From Opitutaceae bacterium (GTDB lineage: Bacteria > Verrucomicrobiota > Verrucomicrobiia > Opitutales > Opitutaceae), in assembly GCA_003151515.1 (NCBI GenBank), contig PLXS01000041.1:1-64000 (forward strand): DNA of 64,000 nucleotides, in the 5' to 3' direction. Shown one piece after another: positions 21,257-60,380 of this stretch. The notes under the pieces are model-generated. The model had not been told where the DNA came from and ran no database searches. It was given only the letters and a program-made list of their open reading frames with translations. The stretch's first letter is position 1; each line of letters opens with the position of its first letter. The translations under genes were made by a program, and so were the position numbers.

Positions 21257-22321
21257 TCAGTTTCCCTCGGGCGGCCTCGGGCCGAAGCCTGGTACGAGCG
21301 CCCCGTGGATCTCGGGCACCCACTCGGACTTGGCAATGCTGTAGGCCACGAAGTCGCCGTCGAACTGCCAGTAGGCCCAGCTCCACTCGAACTTCTCCGC
21401 AGTCCTCGCCACGCAGTCGGTGTAGCGCGCGCGCGAGGCCATGTCCCCCTTGTCATACGCGCCAAACTCACCGAGGAAGATCGGCCTCTGGTGCTGCACG
21501 GACCAGGCCTGGACCTTGGAAAAGTCTGACTCGACCGCGGCCCGCTCCGCTGGCGTCCCTTCCCAGCGGGTGCCCAAGGGGTACTTCGTCTTTGTCCAGG
21601 AGGCGCCCTGGTGCGTGAAAGCCATCGGCAGGTAATAGTGCACCGTGACTATCAGGTGCCTGTCCTGCTCCGGCAGCGCGAGCTCGTCGAGGTGCTTGAC
21701 CGAGTTGTAGAAAGCGGGCCCCACGATCACGGTGCGCGCCGGGTTGCTGGAGCGGATGATGGACAGTGCGTCCGCCAGGTACCGGTTCCAAAGCTCCGGG
21801 GAAAGGGCGTTGTTGGGCTCGTTCAGGATCTCGAAGAGAACGCCGGCCGGCGCGTCCTTGAAATGGGGCGCCGCCTGCCCCCAGAACGAGAGGAACCGCG
21901 CCCTGTTCTCCTGGGGACTGGTTCCCATCTTCTCGTACTCATGAAAGTCGAGCACCACGTTGAGGTGGGACGCCAGGGCGCCGCTCACGATCCAGTCGGC
22001 CGTGCGCCACCAGGAGGCGTCGAGGCGGTAGTCCGGCGCGTCCCCCATGTGGGCGAACGGGTAGAGGTTGACGCGCAGGCTGTCGAATCCGCCCGCGCGG
22101 ATCAGCCCAAAGTCCTCCTCCTTGAACCTGGCCTTTTCCGGGGACTGCCAGACGGGGTCGTAGCCAAGGACGTTCATGCCGCGCCCGAGAGCCCGGTTCT
22201 GTGCAAAGGCGTCGTCGCCCGGCGCATCGGCCGCGGGGCAACGGCTCGGGCTAAGGGCTAGGAGCAGCGCTCCAAAGCCGACGGATGTGGCAAGAAACAA
22301 GCGGACAAATCGTCGAATCAT
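21257..22321 (-). CDS. Secreted glycoside hydrolase family 5 (cellulase-like)
   Basis: This 354-residue protein has a signal peptide (residues 1-31, ending near CPAADA). The catalytic TIM barrel holds FEILNEPNN with acid/base Glu168, VHYY (His228, Tyr229-230) and the nucleophile Glu285 in IFLGEFGAYD. The N-terminal GMNVLGYDP and SLRVNLYPF blocks match GH5. It probably cleaves beta-1,4-glucan or mannan outside the cell or in the periplasm. A second GH5 gene is found at 50877. The start codon lies within a 16-base inverted repeat. Confidence 0.9.
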   Translation of the reverse strand: MIRRFVRLFLATSVGFGALLLALSPSRCPAADAPGDDAFAQNRALGRGMNVLGYDPVWQSPEKARFKEEDFGLIRAGGFDSLRVNLYPFAHMGDAPDYRLDASWWRTADWIVSGALASHLNVVLDFHEYEKMGTSPQENRARFLSFWGQAAPHFKDAPAGVLFEILNEPNNALSPELWNRYLADALSIIRSSNPARTVIVGPAFYNSVKHLDELALPEQDRHLIVTVHYYLPMAFTHQGASWTKTKYPLGTRWEGTPAERAAVESDFSKVQAWSVQHQRPIFLGEFGAYDKGDMASRARYTDCVARTAEKFEWSWAYWQFDGDFVAYSIAKSEWVPEIHGALVPGFGPRPPEGN

Positions 22322-22562: not shown

Positions 22563-25500
22563 ATGAAGCCGACGAAACCCAGCATCGCCGACGCTGAGCG
22601 GACGCCGACGCCGGGCGGCGAGAACGCTCTTCTGGCCCGTTGGCGGGCGGCCGCCTCTCGCGCCGGTGATGGGATGCACCTGATGCCCCTGGGGGCGCCG
22701 GAATCCGAACTGGCCGCATTCCTGCTTGGCAATGAAACACCGGCGGCGGGCGCCGGGGAGCGCGACGCCATCACGCTGCCCGAGATCGAGGCCGTTAGGT
22801 CCCGGCGCGCGCGAGCCGTGCTCGCCGGGGAGGCGCGCCTCGAGCACGAGTTCAGGATCGTTCTCAACCAGCGGCTCTTCTGGGTGCGCGAGTCCGTGGA
22901 GATCCGGGCAAGCGGACCGGACTCATGGGAGCTCGAGGGGCGGGTGACGGACATCACGGCTAGCCGTGACACCCGCGGGACGCGCGACCGCGAGGTCCAG
23001 CAGATCCTCGGCTCGGCCGACTGCATGCTGTGGCGCGCGTGCGTGTTCAGGAAGGGCGAGGGAATCGACCCGAATTGGGTCACCTTCATCCCCTCGTCCA
23101 ATCTCTACCGGAAGATATTCGGCCAGGATCCGCCCGAGCACCCGAAGGAGTTCTGGAACCCCAGGATAGCCCCGGACCTCGCGGAGATGAACGCGCGCTG
23201 CAGCGAGGCGCTCCTAGGCGGAGAGGCCGAGTACAAGCAGGAGTTCCGCATCCTCAAGGACGGCCGGGTCCTTTGGATGCACGAGCATGTGTCGGTCGTC
23301 GCCGAGGGCCCGCGGGAGTGGTCCCTCACCGGGATCATCATGGACGTGACGGCGATCCACGAGGCCAATGAGGAGCGCAGGAGGAAGAGCGAGGCCCAGA
23401 TCCGCGAGATCCTCGCGCGCGCCGACTGCATGATCTGGCAGGCGCGCGTCAGCTCGCTGGACGAGGAGGGCATGGCCCTGAGGTGGGACCTCTACCTGCC
23501 CGAGTCGGAGCTCTACCGGCGGCTTTTCAACGCCGCTCCGGGAGGCACCCCAATCCTCGACTGGGAGAGCCTCGGGGTCCCCGAGTACGAGCAGATGCGC
23601 GCCTACGCGAGGTCGGCGCTGCGCGCGGGGGAGCCCGGCTACGAGCAGGAGTTCCAGGTGCCGCGCGGGCAGAATCCCCCGATCTGGCTGCAGGAGCACG
23701 TGACCATCAAGCCCGTCGGCCCGCGGCAGTGGGACCTCATCGGATTCATAACCGACGTCAGCGCGCGCAAGGCCGCCGAGGAGGCGCGCCATAAGAGCGA
23801 GACCCAGCTCGAGCACATCCTGACGACGGCCAACTGCCTGATCTGGATGGCGCTTGTGCGGGAGGACGGGGCGGGCGACTACACCTGGGAGGTGTTCGCG
23901 CCGCGCTCGGTCCTCTACAAGAAGCTTTTCGGGGAGGAGCCCGTTTACACCAGCAACGGCCGGCTGATCCTGAACTGGTGGAAGCTGAGGGTGCCCGAGC
24001 TGCCGGAGATGGAGGCCCTCTACAAGGAAGCGTTCCGGAAGGGTCTCCCGGGATACGAGCACGAGTTCAGGGCATTCGTCGGCCCGAGGACCCACTGGCT
24101 GCGCGAGCAGGTCTCGATCAAGCCGCTGGAGGCTGGGCTCTTCGAGCTAGTCGGCGTCATCACCGACGTCTCCGACAGGCGGGAGGCCGAGACCGCCCTG
24201 GCCGCGGAGAAGGAAAGGCTGGCGGTGACCCTCAGGGCGATGGCCGAGGGGGTGATCACGACGGACCCGAAGGGGTGCATACTCTTCATCAATCCGGTGG
24301 CGGCATCGCTCGCGCAGTGCGACGCAGCGAATGCCGTCGGGCGCGCCATGAGCGACGTCTGCTCGCTCCGGGACGCGAAAAACGGCGCCCTGGTCGGCAT
24401 CTCCCGCGATCCGTCGGCCCTGTTCGAGCGCGTCGCCAACCTGCCTCCCCAGACCCAGCTCGTCACACGGTCGGGGACCCGCCGCGCGGTGGAGGGATGC
24501 TGCGCGCCCATCCACGCCGCCGACGGCAGGATCATAGGCACGGTGTTCGTGTTCCGCGACGTCACCGAGCGGGAGCGCATGGAGCTGGAGCTCGTGCACG
24601 CGTCGAGGCTGGAGTCGGTCGGCATCCTCGCTGGCGGGATTGCGCACGACTTCAACAACATCCTGACGGCCATCATGGGCAACATCTCGATGGCGAAGCT
24701 TGAGGCGGCGCCGGACACCGACATGTTTAGGTGCCTCGGCGAGGCCGAGCGCGCCACGATGCGCGCCCGCGACCTTACGCTGCAGCTGCTCACCTTCGCC
24801 AAGGGCGGCGAGCCCGTGCGCTCCTCCGTCAACCTGACGTCGGTCGTCCGGGAGGTGTCGGAGTTCTCGCTCCATGGCTCCCTTGTCAGGAGCGTGTTCG
24901 ACCTGCCCGGCGACCTTTGGCGGGCGGACGCCGACGAGGGGCAGATCGGCAGGGTCGTTCAGAACCTCGTCATCAATGCGGCGCAGGCGATGCCGGACGG
25001 GGGGACCGTGCGCATCTCGGCCCGAAACGAGGCGGTGGGCGTCCCAGGCCGGCAGGCGCTCGGCCCCGGGGACTACGTCCACATCTGCATCGCCGACACG
25101 GGCGTCGGGATAAAGCCGGACGTCCTGCCTCGCATTTTCGACCCGTACTTCTCGACGAAGGAGACGGGCAGCGGCCTGGGCCTCGCCGCCAGCTACTCGA
25201 TCGTCAGGAAGCACGGCGGGCTCATCAACGTCGAGTCGGAGTACGGGCGCGGCACCACGTTTCACATCTGGCTGCCGGCGCTGCGGGAGAGTGGCCCGGC
25301 CAAGGAGCCGGACAGGCCCGGCCGCGTGAGGCTTGCCGGGGCCCGGGTGCTTTTCTTGGACGACGAGGCCAGCATCCGCCAGATGGCGGCCGTGCTGCTG
25401 CGCAGGCTGGGGCACGATGTCGTCACCGCGGCCGACGGACGCGAGGCCGTGGAGCAGTTCAGGGCCGCGAAGGCCGAAGGGAAGCCCTTCTCGCTGGTCG

Positions 25501-25718
25501 TCATGGACCTGACGGTGCCGGGGGGGATGGGCGGCCTCGAGGCCCTCGGCCACCTGCGCGCGATCGATCCCGGCGTCAGGGCGGTCGTCTCAAGCGGTTA
25601 CTCGATCGACCCCGTCCTCTCCAACCACCTGGAGCACGGCTTCTGCGGGGTGATCACGAAGCCCTACGACGTCGAGAGGTTCAGCCGCGTCATCGCCGAG
25701 GCGCTCGGCCAGAGGTGA
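22563..25718 (+). CDS. Cytoplasmic hybrid histidine kinase with tandem PAS-like repeats
   Basis: This 1051-residue protein has no membrane helix. Three homologous repeats of about 134 residues start near residues 144, 277 and 412. Each opens with a (Q)xxIL..A(D/N)C(M/L)(I/L)W motif and ends in a TDV or MDV strand, as PAS-PAC units do. A more divergent copy occupies residues 20-140. A standard PAS follows near 545-665. The kinase core has phospho-acceptor His695 in GIAHDFNNILTAI, the N-box LVINAAQA and G-boxes DTGVGI and GSGLGL. The C-terminal receiver has the phosphorylated Asp982 (VVMDLTVPGG) and KPYD. It probably senses a cytoplasmic cue. The GH5 gene upstream is divergent and the next gene downstream is convergent, so no dedicated output gene is adjacent. 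Confidence 0.92.
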   Translation: MKPTKPSIADAERTPTPGGENALLARWRAAASRAGDGMHLMPLGAPESELAAFLLGNETPAAGAGERDAITLPEIEAVRSRRARAVLAGEARLEHEFRIVLNQRLFWVRESVEIRASGPDSWELEGRVTDITASRDTRGTRDREVQQILGSADCMLWRACVFRKGEGIDPNWVTFIPSSNLYRKIFGQDPPEHPKEFWNPRIAPDLAEMNARCSEALLGGEAEYKQEFRILKDGRVLWMHEHVSVVAEGPREWSLTGIIMDVTAIHEANEERRRKSEAQIREILARADCMIWQARVSSLDEEGMALRWDLYLPESELYRRLFNAAPGGTPILDWESLGVPEYEQMRAYARSALRAGEPGYEQEFQVPRGQNPPIWLQEHVTIKPVGPRQWDLIGFITDVSARKAAEEARHKSETQLEHILTTANCLIWMALVREDGAGDYTWEVFAPRSVLYKKLFGEEPVYTSNGRLILNWWKLRVPELPEMEALYKEAFRKGLPGYEHEFRAFVGPRTHWLREQVSIKPLEAGLFELVGVITDVSDRREAETALAAEKERLAVTLRAMAEGVITTDPKGCILFINPVAASLAQCDAANAVGRAMSDVCSLRDAKNGALVGISRDPSALFERVANLPPQTQLVTRSGTRRAVEGCCAPIHAADGRIIGTVFVFRDVTERERMELELVHASRLESVGILAGGIAHDFNNILTAIMGNISMAKLEAAPDTDMFRCLGEAERATMRARDLTLQLLTFAKGGEPVRSSVNLTSVVREVSEFSLHGSLVRSVFDLPGDLWRADADEGQIGRVVQNLVINAAQAMPDGGTVRISARNEAVGVPGRQALGPGDYVHICIADTGVGIKPDVLPRIFDPYFSTKETGSGLGLAASYSIVRKHGGLINVESEYGRGTTFHIWLPALRESGPAKEPDRPGRVRLAGARVLFLDDEASIRQMAAVLLRRLGHDVVTAADGREAVEQFRAAKAEGKPFSLVVMDLTVPGGMGGLEALGHLRAIDPGVRAVVSSGYSIDPVLSNHLEHGFCGVITKPYDVERFSRVIAEALGQR

Positions 25719-25736: not shown

Positions 25737-27140
25737 TCAGGCCAGCGCCGGCCGCACCACGCCGGGCTTCGACTCCACCTCGGCTATGTAGCGGCGCGTC
25801 GCGGGCGGCAGCTCGAGCCAGAGCTTCACCGCGATGATCAGACCGATGACCGCGAACGGGACGAGGAAGAGGGGCCACCAAACCCAGTTGATCGAGGCGA
25901 GGTACCCAATGCTCACGGACTGGATGGTGCTGCCTAGGTAGGCGAATCCGTCGACTATCCCGGCGCAGGTGGCGGTTGCCTTGCGCCCGCCGAAATCCGT
26001 CGCCGCGGTGCCCGACATCAGGGACGTGATCCCGACCGCGCACATGGTGATCGCCACGGCGGCGACTCCCATGGTGACCGGGAAGGACTTGAGCGCGAGC
26101 GCCATCACCAGCGAAAAAACAAGGACAAGGCCGCTCAGGATCGCGGCCGGTGGGCCGCGCCGGGACTGGTAGAACTTGTCCGAGACGTAGCCCGCGGCGA
26201 ACCCGCCTACGATGCCGAAGATGCACAGCAACCATCCCCAGTGCTCCACGATGAAGGCGCTGCGCGCGGTCGGCAGCTCCTTGGCGAAGAAGGGGTACCA
26301 GTACGAGATCCCGTTGCGGAAAACGCCCGAGGTGAGTTCCACGATGGCGATCATCATCATGAGCGGGCTGAAGAACACTTTCTTGAGAAGCTGCAGGTAC
26401 GTGAAATCGATGTGCATCAGCCCCGACGAGGCGTCGTGCGTGTCGAACGCGGGGAACCCCACGTCCTCGGGTGTGTCGGCAACCGCCCAGATGTCCGAGA
26501 GGGTCCACGCGGCGATGATGGCGGCCGGGACGAAGAACACGGCGGGCACGCTGCCGGTGAAGTTGACGATCGCCTGGCTCCAGTCGATGGCGAAGTACAC
26601 TCCGACCGAGATCAGCGTTCCGAAGATGGCGCCGAAGATGCCGCGCTCCCGGACATGGAACCAGTACGCCTTGACCTTGATGATCGAGACGGCGCCGTAG
26701 CTCTGGAAATACATGTTGAGAGCGTAGAGCACGCTGTAGGCTGCTACTAGGTGGCCCCGCGCCCTTCCGGCCAGGACGGCGACCGTCAGCACCCCGAGCA
26801 GCGCGTTCGACAGCGCCGAGCCGAACCCGGCGATCAGCATCCCGCGCTTGCCCCCGATCCGGTCGACCAGCGGCCCGTTCACCACGAAGGAAACGGCGTA
26901 GACCAGGGTGCCCACCCCGGTGATGATCCCGAACATCTCCTTGCTCATCAGAGTGCCCATCGCCTTGGACGAGACGATGATGTTCAGCCGCCCCATGTAG
27001 AGGAACGAGTAGGTCATCCCCAGGGGGAACCAGTTCAGGAAGCGCCGGAGGATGAAGCGCCGGCTGTGGTGGAGCGGGTTGTTGGCGAAGTAGGCTACGA
27101 TGACCGCGACCAGGCAGACGGCGATGACGGCAAGGTACAT
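25737..27140 (-). CDS. MFS transporter, organophosphate:phosphate antiporter (GlpT/UhpT) type
   Basis: This 467-residue protein (start ATG 27140) has about 12 hydrophobic helices. The first half includes the YMGRLNIIVSS loop and GPLVDRIGGKRGM, the MFS loop 2-3 motif. A cytoplasmic middle loop lies around residues 210-235. Family-like patterns such as FRNGISYWYPFF and GTAATDFGGRKATATCAGIVDG near residues 290 and 390 are typical of GlpT/UhpT-like carriers. It likely exchanges a phosphorylated or anionic solute at the inner membrane. It is convergent with the PAS kinase, with an 18-base gap. The substrate cannot be read from the sequence. Confidence 0.88.
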   Translation of the reverse strand: MYLAVIAVCLVAVIVAYFANNPLHHSRRFILRRFLNWFPLGMTYSFLYMGRLNIIVSSKAMGTLMSKEMFGIITGVGTLVYAVSFVVNGPLVDRIGGKRGMLIAGFGSALSNALLGVLTVAVLAGRARGHLVAAYSVLYALNMYFQSYGAVSIIKVKAYWFHVRERGIFGAIFGTLISVGVYFAIDWSQAIVNFTGSVPAVFFVPAAIIAAWTLSDIWAVADTPEDVGFPAFDTHDASSGLMHIDFTYLQLLKKVFFSPLMMMIAIVELTSGVFRNGISYWYPFFAKELPTARSAFIVEHWGWLLCIFGIVGGFAAGYVSDKFYQSRRGPPAAILSGLVLVFSLVMALALKSFPVTMGVAAVAITMCAVGITSLMSGTAATDFGGRKATATCAGIVDGFAYLGSTIQSVSIGYLASINWVWWPLFLVPFAVIGLIIAVKLWLELPPATRRYIAEVESKPGVVRPALA

Positions 27141-27347
27141 GGAATGGGCCGACGATGCCTGCGGCCCAAGCTGGCACAATCCCATTTCGCCCCGGCCGCC
27201 ACAATTCTGGCGACTCATTCAGCACGGCCGACTTCCAAAGGCGCTTTTGCGCGCACACTTGCGCCGCGCAATGCCGCACAATTGCAATCAGCGCGCCTCA
27301 TCGAGGCGGTCTCCCTGTCCCTGGGAGCTCCCTTTCGGCGAACCGGG

Positions 27348-29450
27348 CTAGATCGCCCAACCTCGGCGCTTCGCCACGTTTAGCGTGAGCATGCTCCCGA
27401 GGTAGGCGGCGATCACCAGCAACGCGAGCCGATGGCCGCCGACCGCCATCGTGAGGTACTCGCAGAATCCGCCCAGCATCGCCCCGATCAAGTTCGCGCC
27501 GAACACGGCCGAGGGGGCGGCGGACTCCCGGAACGTCGTCGAGAATATGATGCCCGCGAAGAATATGGGCAGGGGCACCGCCAGGAGCGTCCATGCCATG
27601 CGCGCCGCGAAGGAGAGCCCGAGCACCTGCTCGCGCGGAACGAGAACCAGGACCACGAGGGCGACGAACAGCGGAGCGTACATCCCGAACGAGAACCTCG
27701 CGGTGCGCTCCGCGGCCAGGTTTGCGGCCAGCACCATGAGAAGCACACCCGCCACCACGAGCATCGTGACAAACCAGGTGGCGCCGAAATACAGCGTGCA
27801 GTCGTTGATGCTTTTCGTCTCGAGCAGCATGAAGCCCATTCCCAGGAGGCCGAAATGCAGGTCGCCCGCGCCGAACGAGCGCCGCCGCAGGCCGGTGACG
27901 CAGATGAGGGAGAAGGCGAGGAGGCTGCCGATCGCCGTCAGGTAGTCCGAGGGGATGTTCTTTCCGTTGAGGTAGAGGAACGGCCAGTCATCCGTCGGCA
28001 GGTCGATCCGCGACATGGGCCCGGCGATCGCCTGCTCCCTGAAGTGGACCCGCCGGAACTGGGAGATGCGCTCGGGCAGCTGCTGGCGCGCGTCCCTGGG
28101 CACGCACAGGATGACGAAGCGGTCCAGGGAGTACATCGCGGGCTGGCGCCCGGTGGCCGCGGACAGAGCCTGGTAGAGCTTCGGCGGAAGCCAGTCCGTC
28201 GGGGCGTAGAATGACAGGACGAGCATCCCGCTCCCGTTGAGCAGGCGGTACGCCGAACGCAGGCCCTCCACGGTGTAGACATAGCCGTCGAGCCTGACGC
28301 TGCTCATGCTGCTGAAGAGGACATGCGAATCGAGGAGGCCGAACACGACCATGTCGTATCCCGGGTGCGCCTTCGCGAGATAGGAGCGCGCGTCGTCGAC
28401 GCGGACGCTGACCCTCGGGTCCGAATACGGCGCGGCCGCGTTGAACCGCCGCGATATCTGCGAGACGACCGGATCGATGTCGACGGCGTCGACGTGGCGG
28501 GCCCCGGACGCGAGCGCAGCCGAGACGTCGCCTCCTCCGCCGGCGCCAAGGATCAGGATGTTGTCCCTGCCGCTGGCCAAGGCGTAGGGAATGCGGTAGT
28601 AGCCCGTCCAGAGCGCCACGACCGAGCGGCCCGCGTGCGATCCCTTGGTGTAGCGGGCGGGGTCGAACGCCCCGTCAAACTGGTAGAAGAACTGGTTGAT
28701 CCCGACGGAGTACACCGGCGGATTCACCATCGTCAGGAGCCCCGGCGGCGGATCCGTCTCCGAGACGCCGGGGGTCTCGATCCGGCTGATGGTCAGGTAC
28801 TGGTACGGCGACCAGATCGCGGCCCGGTCGCTGTTGAGGAACACGACCGCCAGGATCGCGCCGAACACAGGGAGGCTCAGCACCCACCGGCCCCTCGCCG
28901 AAATCAGCAGGTAGACCGTCATCACGGCCGCCATGCCCAGTATCGGGGAGAAGTGCATGAGCGAGAAGAGGCCGAAGCACAGGGTGCCGAAGAGGCTGCC
29001 GGCCAGGTCCCACGCATAGGCGCTGAGGCGGGGCAGCGAGTTGAAGAGGACGCCCATGCGCTGGCCCAGCGGAACGAAGACGAGCGCGTTGCTGGCGAAG
29101 ATCCAGATGAGGACGGCCGTGTTGAGAAGGGTGCGGTCCGAGGCGAGCGTGAAGAAGCGGGCCTCGCCCGAGCTTCCGCCTAGCATCACCTCGCGGCAGA
29201 GGACCAGCGTCACCACCTCGCAGGCCAGGAAGCACGGGAACCAGTTGAAAAGCGCCAGCCTCGCCTTGCCGGCCATCGCGCCGGCGCCCAGGCCCAGGAA
29301 CGAGCTCAGGAGCATCAGGTTTGCGTAGTACGCGATGAACGGCACAACGGACGGCACCCAGCGGATCACCATCAGCTCCAGGAAGAGCGCTGTGAACGAC
29401 AGCGCGAACATCTGGATTCTGAGTCGGCTCAGGGGCTCTGTCGACGGCAC
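27348..29450 (-). CDS. Membrane-embedded spermidine-synthase-like protein
   Basis: This 700-residue protein starts at GTG 29450. About six or seven helices cover residues 14-210. A cytoplasmic Rossmann domain follows (about 215-480), with SAM motif I ILGAGGGGDV, AVDIDPVV and VDDARSYLA, all as in the polyamine synthase fold. Another six or seven helices complete residues 485-695. In this architecture the SpeE-like domain sits between two membrane halves, a type known in many bacteria without a clear role. Whether it acts on polyamines or another acceptor is open. It is divergent from the YfhO-like gene, which suggests shared control. Confidence 0.85.
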   Translation of the reverse strand: MPSTEPLSRLRIQMFALSFTALFLELMVIRWVPSVVPFIAYYANLMLLSSFLGLGAGAMAGKARLALFNWFPCFLACEVVTLVLCREVMLGGSSGEARFFTLASDRTLLNTAVLIWIFASNALVFVPLGQRMGVLFNSLPRLSAYAWDLAGSLFGTLCFGLFSLMHFSPILGMAAVMTVYLLISARGRWVLSLPVFGAILAVVFLNSDRAAIWSPYQYLTISRIETPGVSETDPPPGLLTMVNPPVYSVGINQFFYQFDGAFDPARYTKGSHAGRSVVALWTGYYRIPYALASGRDNILILGAGGGGDVSAALASGARHVDAVDIDPVVSQISRRFNAAAPYSDPRVSVRVDDARSYLAKAHPGYDMVVFGLLDSHVLFSSMSSVRLDGYVYTVEGLRSAYRLLNGSGMLVLSFYAPTDWLPPKLYQALSAATGRQPAMYSLDRFVILCVPRDARQQLPERISQFRRVHFREQAIAGPMSRIDLPTDDWPFLYLNGKNIPSDYLTAIGSLLAFSLICVTGLRRRSFGAGDLHFGLLGMGFMLLETKSINDCTLYFGATWFVTMLVVAGVLLMVLAANLAAERTARFSFGMYAPLFVALVVLVLVPREQVLGLSFAARMAWTLLAVPLPIFFAGIIFSTTFRESAAPSAVFGANLIGAMLGGFCEYLTMAVGGHRLALLVIAAYLGSMLTLNVAKRRGWAI

Positions 29451-59062: not shown

Positions 59063-60337
59063 CTACGCCTCCGGATGGAGGAGGGCGGCCACAGCCTGCA
59101 GCAGCGCGTCCGCCTTGAACGGCTTGAAGAGGAATCCGCCCGCCAGCTGCTTCATCTCCTCGGCGTCCGCGCCGCTCGATAGCCCGCTGATTGCAAGCGT
59201 GAGCACGGACGGGTTGAGCCGCCGCACGATGTGGGCAAGCGCGGCGCCGTCGAGGTTGGGCATGCGAAGGTCGGTCATTACCAGGCTGATATCGTTGCTT
59301 CGCGAGGCGAATATGGCGACGGCCTCGATTCCATCTGCGGCCATGAGCACGCGGTAGCCGTGCCTCGAGAGTATGGCGGCCGTGACGTCGCGGATCTGGG
59401 GCTCGTCGTCGACGATGAGGACAAGCTCCCCATTGCCCCTCGCAGCGAGCACGCGGGGGGGTGTGTCCGCGGTGCCGCTGGCGGGGATCTCGGTCGCCGG
59501 CAGGTAGACGCGGAAGGTCGTGCCGCTCCCGGGCAGCGTCTTCAGGCTGATGAAGCCCTTGTGGCTCTCGACGATGCCCCGCACCGTGGACAGCCCCAGC
59601 CCCGTCCCCTTTCCCGCCGCCTTGGTCGTGAAGAAGGGCTCCCAGATCTGCGCGATGTTCTCGTCGGGGATTCCCGCGCCCGTGTCCTCGATGTGCAGGA
59701 CGAGCCAGCTGCCTGCGGCCGCCCCGTCGAACTTGGAGGCCGCCTCCTGGTCCAGGCGGCAGTTCTCCGCCCTCAGGCGCAGGGTGCCGCCCGACGGCAT
59801 CGCGTCCCTCGCGTTCACGCAGAGGTTCAGGATCACCTGGTGGATCTGCGTCGGATCGGCCAGGATCGGCACCAGGTTCATCGGCACGCTGTCCTCAAGG
59901 CGGATGCTCTTCGGGAACGTCTCGCGGATCACGCTGATGGTTTCCCGAAGCAGGTGCCTGACGTCGACAAGCTGGCGGCCGCCCCCGACGCCCTGGGCGA
60001 ACGCGAGGATCTGGCGCACGAGGGCCACGCCTCGCTCCGCGCTCTTCTCAAGCGAGCTGATGATGCGCTGGTCGTCCGGGTGGGTGGCATGCTCGCGCAA
60101 CACGGGGGCCGCGAGGATGATGGGCGCGAGGACGTTGTTGAGGTCGTGGGCGATCCCGGAGGCCAGCATCCCGATGCTCTCCAGGCGCTGGGCGCGAAGA
60201 ACCTGCTCGTCCATTACGCCCACCTCAGGGCCGGCCTTTTCCTTGGGCCTGAATTCGGGCCCGGCGAGTTCGCCCGGTCCGACCTCCGGATCGGCGCATT
60301 CCACGGCGCGGACTGCCTGGGCCCCGAATGCTTCCAT
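59063..60337 (-). CDS. Orphan histidine kinase-receiver hybrid without sensor domain
   Basis: From ATG 60337 this is a 424-residue protein; GTG 60373 and ATG 60214 are alternative starts. The N-terminal 45 residues are Pro/Glu-rich and no PAS, GAF or membrane helix is visible. The HisKA helix has His64 in GIAHDLNNVLAPI, then the ATPase domain with N-box LNLCVNARDAMP, DTGAGI and GTGLGL. The C-terminal receiver has VDDE and a phosphorylated Asp in TDLRMPN. It is likely soluble and may be driven by another sensor. It is divergent from the NarL-type regulator. Confidence 0.92.
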   Translation of the reverse strand: MEAFGAQAVRAVECADPEVGPGELAGPEFRPKEKAGPEVGVMDEQVLRAQRLESIGMLASGIAHDLNNVLAPIILAAPVLREHATHPDDQRIISSLEKSAERGVALVRQILAFAQGVGGGRQLVDVRHLLRETISVIRETFPKSIRLEDSVPMNLVPILADPTQIHQVILNLCVNARDAMPSGGTLRLRAENCRLDQEAASKFDGAAAGSWLVLHIEDTGAGIPDENIAQIWEPFFTTKAAGKGTGLGLSTVRGIVESHKGFISLKTLPGSGTTFRVYLPATEIPASGTADTPPRVLAARGNGELVLIVDDEPQIRDVTAAILSRHGYRVLMAADGIEAVAIFASRSNDISLVMTDLRMPNLDGAALAHIVRRLNPSVLTLAISGLSSGADAEEMKQLAGGFLFKPFKADALLQAVAALLHPEA

Positions 60338-60380
60338 CGTAGCAGCAAGGTGGCAACGAACTTGCACCTTCACTACTTCG

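Follow-up and report, generated by a model that had tools for sequence, protein, structure and literature searches.

A tandem-PAS hybrid histidine kinase from an Opitutaceae bacterium contains a repeated PAS variant with a Cys-Trp opening

Introduction

Hybrid histidine kinases with several PAS domains are known as a kind, and thiol control has been reported in sensor kinases such as ArcB, EvgS and AccS. In ArcB, control is reported to be exerted through the cytoplasmic PAS domain and to involve a Cys180 disulfide, and an AlphaFold dimer places the two Cys180 residues over 25 Å apart (PMC10578306). In EvgS it is reported to run through C671 and C683 of the cytoplasmic PAS domain, located in H-beta and I-beta (PMC8174306), and for AccS a thiol control involving quinones is reported, with conserved cysteines in the autokinase domain (PMC6456745). 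PpsR is a transcription factor with three PAS domains. The helices that join its tandem units are reported to run into the N-cap that follows; its dimer is held together mainly by an interface made of the N-cap, the loop leading from there to the core and one beta strand, and in N-capped PAS dimers of this sort the alternate A-beta face is covered by cap helices (PMC3949515).

Here we describe a kinase of an Opitutaceae bacterium encoded in a 64-kb window, the whole stretch of DNA that was analyzed. Like ArcB, EvgS and AccS it is a sensor kinase; thiol control is reported for those three. It differs from these proteins in having one Cys per repeated unit, located at the joint between a helix and the A-beta strand. 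The redox cysteines of ArcB probably also lie at other places. Tandem PAS units joined by helices are shared with PpsR as described, but PpsR is not a kinase. A literature search did not find PAS kinases of this group described.

Results

The gene, the domains of the protein and the three cysteines considered below have the following window coordinates.

22563..25718, + strand: hybrid histidine kinase gene, an open ORF of 1051 amino acids with Pfam domains
22620..22967, + strand: U0, degenerate first PAS unit, residues 20-135 (alignment and array model)
22998..23393, + strand: U1, PAS unit, residues 146-277, with ADCMLW (alignment; PAS_3)
23022..23024, + strand: Cys154 of U1, first residue of A-beta in the array model
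23394..23795, + strand: U2, PAS unit, residues 278-411, with ADCMIW (alignment; modeled singly)
23427..23429, + strand: Cys289 of U2, first residue of A-beta in the single-unit and array models
23796..24197, + strand: U3, PAS unit, residues 412-545, with ANCLIW (alignment)
23835..23837, + strand: Cys425 of U3, first residue of A-beta in the array model
24216..24563, + strand: fifth PAS domain, residues 552-667, of another PAS type (Pfam, alignment)
24627..24809, + strand: HisKA, residues 689-749, phospho-acceptor by motif His695 in AHDFNN (Pfam)
24933..25280, + strand: HATPase_c, residues 791-906 (Pfam), with strings taken as the N, G1 and G2 boxes
25347..25685, + strand: receiver domain, residues 929-1041, likely phospho-acceptor Asp982 in VVMDLTV (Pfam, motif)

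The assignment as a hybrid kinase, already made in a preliminary description of this DNA, was confirmed by HisKA (27.1 bits), HATPase_c (86.8 bits) and receiver (52.7 bits) matches, all above the Pfam cut-offs, with a thin margin for HisKA (cut-off 26.9 bits). As judged by domain and motif, the HisKA-HATPase-receiver output half is complete. The same description proposed three related PAS-like units of about 134 residues plus a diverged fourth, and pairwise alignments agree with it. Identities were 51/129 for U1-U2, 46/121 for U1-U3 and 57/126 for U2-U3, i.e., a mutual identity of 38-45%, with scores 33-42 SD above those of 500 shuffles. U0, tested as residues 40-135, aligned with U1, U2 and U3 at 15-23 SD above shuffles. 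The description needs correcting here: the diverged unit, a degenerate copy of the others, lies at the N-terminus (about residues 20-135) and lacks the Cys. The next PAS (546-680) gave no alignment with any unit beyond shuffles (z -0.4 to 1.9). The shared opening A(D/N)C(M/L)(I/L)W was found as described in U1 to U3, and the spacing between the motifs containing Cys154, Cys289 and Cys425 is 135 and 136 residues. U0 also lacks the N-cap helix, and its equivalents of Trp308, Trp334 and Tyr360 are Met, Arg and Leu, a combination seen in no other unit. In a Pfam scan of the full protein the best PAS_3 stretch was 182-257. When the pieces were given singly, PAS_3 (PF08447) matched U1 at 33.7 bits (gathering cut-off 25.6), and residues 1-140 (including U0), U2 and U3 had no Pfam match at E up to 1.

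A model of U2 built from a 69-row alignment (pLDDT 92.6, pTM 0.84) has the PAS fold, a five-stranded sheet with flanking helices, so that aligning the repeats and modeling one unit, as the preliminary description advised, upheld its PAS assignment. The top solved folds, treated as tied because their Z scores lie within 1, were the FixL PAS 8js5_B (Z 11.7, 2.2 Å over 116) and the Brucella LOV-HK PAS 6ph4_B (Z 11.6, 2.6 Å over 119); identity is only 17%, and a shared fold does not settle function. A model of the array (residues 20-554, pLDDT 82.5) contains four PAS folds, U0 to U3, with connecting helices; its pTM of 0.42 is low, and the relative placing of the units is not to be read from it. 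Since U0 has a whole PAS fold in this model, the reading of U0 as a mere fragment was rejected. The helices occupy indices 113-133, 244-267 and 381-403, and strands start at 135, 270 and 406, which correspond to Cys154, Cys289 and Cys425 (index plus 19). In the U2 model A-beta spans unit residues 12-21, with Cys289 as residue 12. In the models, then, A-beta begins with the Cys, directly behind the helix between units. Positions W292, A294 and V296 are conserved (A294 128/153, V296 135/153) and alternate with the variable positions 293 and 295. Therefore, from strand alternation, the Cys side chain should face the opposite side of the sheet. We infer that it lies outside the pocket, on a joint used for dimer formation and signal transmission.

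Searches were made for relatives of these units. A protein search gave matches in 35 of 95 genomes and a 51-row unit profile in 50 of 387 genomes of the phylum at E 1e-6, the window's own genome being included both times. Among the matches listed for this profile, those above 100 bits were found only in the window's own family, Opitutaceae; two places in another family of the phylum (f53) scored about 71 bits and the remainder at most 40 bits. A 69-row profile matched three of the four f53 genomes, one of them at 115.8 bits, a result that weakened the notion of a subfamily sharply limited to Opitutaceae. Within that family, 37 of 252 genomes and 12 of 49 genera were positive at E 1e-12. A scan of genome contigs with a Cys-containing peptide pattern located 26 loci, 25 in records named as Opitutaceae or other Verrucomicrobiota and one in a record named as Poribacteria. 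The units thus form a PAS subfamily that, in the searches made, is mainly from Opitutaceae (Verrucomicrobiota). There are one to seven units per protein. Two proteins (L042 and L155) have seven, in open frames of 1689 and 1554 residues. PAS_3 recognized 18 of the 69 units scanned at E 0.01 or better and left 51 unmatched. The subfamily resembles the PAS_3 S-box domains in its PAS fold, its DIT end motif and the 30 residues from the Asp of that motif to the next Trp. It differs in its CLLW opening, invariant H-beta Glu and extra Trp residues, which on sequence grounds mark it as separate.

Conservation was scored in 66 non-redundant proteins with 155 units of at least 60 bits, from the matches fetched among those listed. 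They remained from 89 proteins once lower-scoring units, and proteins with a repeat region nested within another, had been dropped. Two units have no Cys column, hence 153 were scored. In this set the Cys was present in 115 of 153 units and the Trp of the motif (W292) in 152 of 153. The D and S that one first unit (L049_u1) shows in the Cys and Trp columns are artefacts of masked letters; when this unit is removed the figures become 115/152 for Cys, 152/152 for Trp and 9/35 for the Cys of first units. Absence of the Cys from homologues, the outcome named beforehand as telling against a sensing role, was not what was found. The Cys depends on the position in the array: among the fetched matches all 38 last units of arrays had it, as did 42 of 50 middle units and 9 of 36 scored first units (38 arrays, two first units having no Cys column and one of the 36 being masked), and so did 23 of 25 single-unit proteins. 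These counts cover 63 proteins, 151 units and 38 arrays from loci of the genome searches only, with the Cys-pattern loci left out; they carry a small bias, as the genome-search profile itself contained the Cys, the first or last unit may be wrong for a few proteins cut by contig ends, and the proteins are related and not independent events. On a unit tree made with the Cys column omitted, the Cys state changed at least 11 times. The pattern of stacked units, three of them with a Cys at the same joint, is real and old.

The units were inspected for known cofactor motifs. LOV flavin domains carry their adduct Cys in the motif GxNCRFL(Q/R), which was found in none of the 155 units. A CxxC pair was absent from all 155 units and from the window protein. 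FixL-type heme PAS domains have a conserved heme-ligand His in helix F; no conserved His was found in the units, where the best His column reached 41%, at residue 377 in H-beta. These counts give no support to a FixL-type heme ligand, to LOV flavin or to CxxC-type metal binding; heme and metal sensing were among the proposals of the preliminary description.

The link from the DIT Asp to the Trp of the following unit measured 30 residues in 86 of the 88 pairs taken as adjacent; a pair separated by 552 residues was left out of this count. Both exceptions are in the window protein: 27 residues for U0-U1 (22950-23033) and 31 for U1-U2 (23343-23438). Since generic PAS_3 links caught by a narrow pattern also measured 30 residues (5/5), the link was dropped as a novelty. 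The 30-residue step looks general, with the window protein as the odd case, and given its links of 27 and 31 the window stack may be partly out of register.

The window protein has no membrane segment, in keeping with the preliminary description: the best 19-residue hydrophobic mean was 1.28, and none reached the transmembrane level of 1.8. Inspection by eye of the three upstream forward frames showed no such segment hidden by a wrong start or frame. Among 39 proteins with at least two units, a hydrophobic segment precedes the first unit in 33 and is missing from three (the window protein, L132 and L158); the other three are cut there. When the start-cut arrays are set aside, 33 of 35 scorable array relatives have the segment, the stretch before the units being an open frame with no proven start codon. 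For this reason the missing segment, and with it the cytoplasmic location, looks derived in the window protein. The protein begins inside its first unit, without the N-cap helix of that unit. It probably descends from an array in which the membrane anchor was lost and the first unit degenerated. A paralogue in the same genome (L009:8280-10850, 856 amino acids) has an N-terminal hydrophobic helix and two units, the first with SNVLLWW and no Cys and the second with AGCLLWQ, followed, by eye, by another kinase type and receivers.

The internal duplications of the preliminary description stood in that the repeats are homologous; a recent copying of U1 to U3 was rejected. The unit tree does not join these three as sisters. 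It places U1 and U2 among units from other proteins, leaves U3 without a resolved position and sets U0, on a long and unsure branch, beside second units from four further arrays. This tree is weakly resolved, with many weak forks from 128 columns for 155 rows. As read from it, the duplications are old. A quick kinase tree, in which several long branches make the wider placing unsure, put the window protein in a set of 13 rows (SH-aLRT 96) with arrays of other genera and seven same-genus kinases in a separate set (98). Orthology with the same-genus two-unit kinases was not supported. Kinase-core identity to the window protein was 49-56% for the same-genus cores listed and 63% for L133.

Discussion

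The reading that we favor, at slightly better than even confidence, is that of a cytoplasmic tandem-PAS hybrid kinase that signals as a stacked-PAS dimer, with the Cys tuning the joints between helices and A-beta strands. In a parallel dimer, the PAS units would be stacked on signaling helices, and a change in the pockets or dimer contacts of U1 to U3 would be passed down these helices and set autophosphorylation at His695, followed by transfer to Asp982 and then to some Hpt or regulator. U0 would have lost sensing and would serve as a cap. The conserved Cys, located where each signaling helix meets the next A-beta strand, would most likely be a small packed thiol that tunes the joint; in the unit closest to the kinase it may in addition serve as a lock sensitive to redox state.

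Several readings of the Cys and of the units were weighed. It is quite plausible, if short of an even chance, that the Cys has a structural role and nothing more: at the start of A-beta it would pack beneath the N-cap helix as a small hydrophobic residue, fixed by descent. The 38 replacements are I (12), V (10), S (4), A (3), G (3), F (2), T (2), L (1) and D (1, the masked unit), so that Ile and Val make up 22 of them; among first units that lack the Cys the share is 19 of 27, as fits a packed position. By its commonest residue the column ranks 30 of 132, among ordinary core positions and outside the most conserved set, and the corresponding residues of five generic PAS_3 links are L, L, I, Y and D. 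A purely structural Cys sits less easily with its retention in all three units fetched from f53 (L184-L186), or with the absence of any replacement in 38 last units when most first units have no Cys.

A tentative but credible reading moves the sensing function elsewhere: the pocket of each unit would bind a small ligand, the aromatic residues and the invariant Glu being the sensor and the Cys incidental. It is compatible with a structural Cys, and the probabilities assigned to the readings do not add up to one. E378 in H-beta is Glu in 155 of 155 units and the aromatic positions are nearly as constant (W292 as given above, W308 152/153, W334 143/154, Y360 151/155); the degenerate U0 is the unit that has Met, Arg and Leu at three of them. 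This set suggests a shared pocket or a structural core, and the Trp and Glu residues may be structural.

A thiol redox switch is possible as judged from sequence, though we regard it as rather doubtful. Oxidation, for example by quinones or peroxide, would join the two protomers at each joint or weaken the dimer and so turn the kinase on or off. The inferred location of the Cys near the dimer interface, its presence in every last unit and in nearly all single units, and the conservation of the Cys, Trp and Glu in the f53 units are in line with such a switch. A unit from a Poribacteria bin keeps the same three residues, but it is a biased case, found with a Cys-containing pattern. The ArcB disulfide, the EvgS cysteines and the AccS thiols and quinones, as reported in the papers cited above, are precedents for thiol control; yet the EvgS and AccS cysteines occupy other sites, and the ArcB dimer model keeps its Cys180 pair well apart. 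Replacement of the Cys in 38 of 153 scored units also speaks against a switch. There is one conserved Cys per unit, the next-best Cys column reaching 12%, so a disulfide would have to be formed between protomers. That the PAS stacks are chains of thiol rivets, in which the Cys of the two protomers meet on the dimer axis and oxidation locks the helix joint by joint, is unlikely. If it were true, the grading or integration of redox signals by the kinase would be set by the number of units (1-7), and the master lock would be the last joint, which has a Cys in all 38 arrays counted.

Binding of heme, flavin or a metal through the Cys is highly improbable: the nearest solved folds include FixL and LOV proteins, but the matched FixL stretch is residues 22-140, which we take to be a non-heme PAS, the units have no LOV motif, CxxC or conserved His, and a single Cys per unit outside the inferred pocket would make a poor metal site.

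What the analysis offers is a PAS subfamily mostly missed by Pfam and built in stacks of one to seven on a fixed step. With such a natural series one could learn in what way signals are passed or summed along the helix of a multi-PAS kinase, and whether the Cys of the helix joint acts as a switch or is only packing. The position rule, by which every one of the 38 last units has the Cys and most first units lack it, is clear and testable.

The kinase gene is flanked upstream by a GH5 cellulase gene (21257-22321, - strand) and downstream by an MFS transporter gene (25737-27218, - strand), and no regulator gene was found among these two. Elsewhere in the window, 59063-60373 encodes a second hybrid kinase with HisKA, HATPase_c and receiver domains. 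A 700-residue ORF at 27348-29450 has a spermine synthase-like domain at residues 291-380 (26.8 bits, cut-off 22.9) and ends that by eye are hydrophobic.
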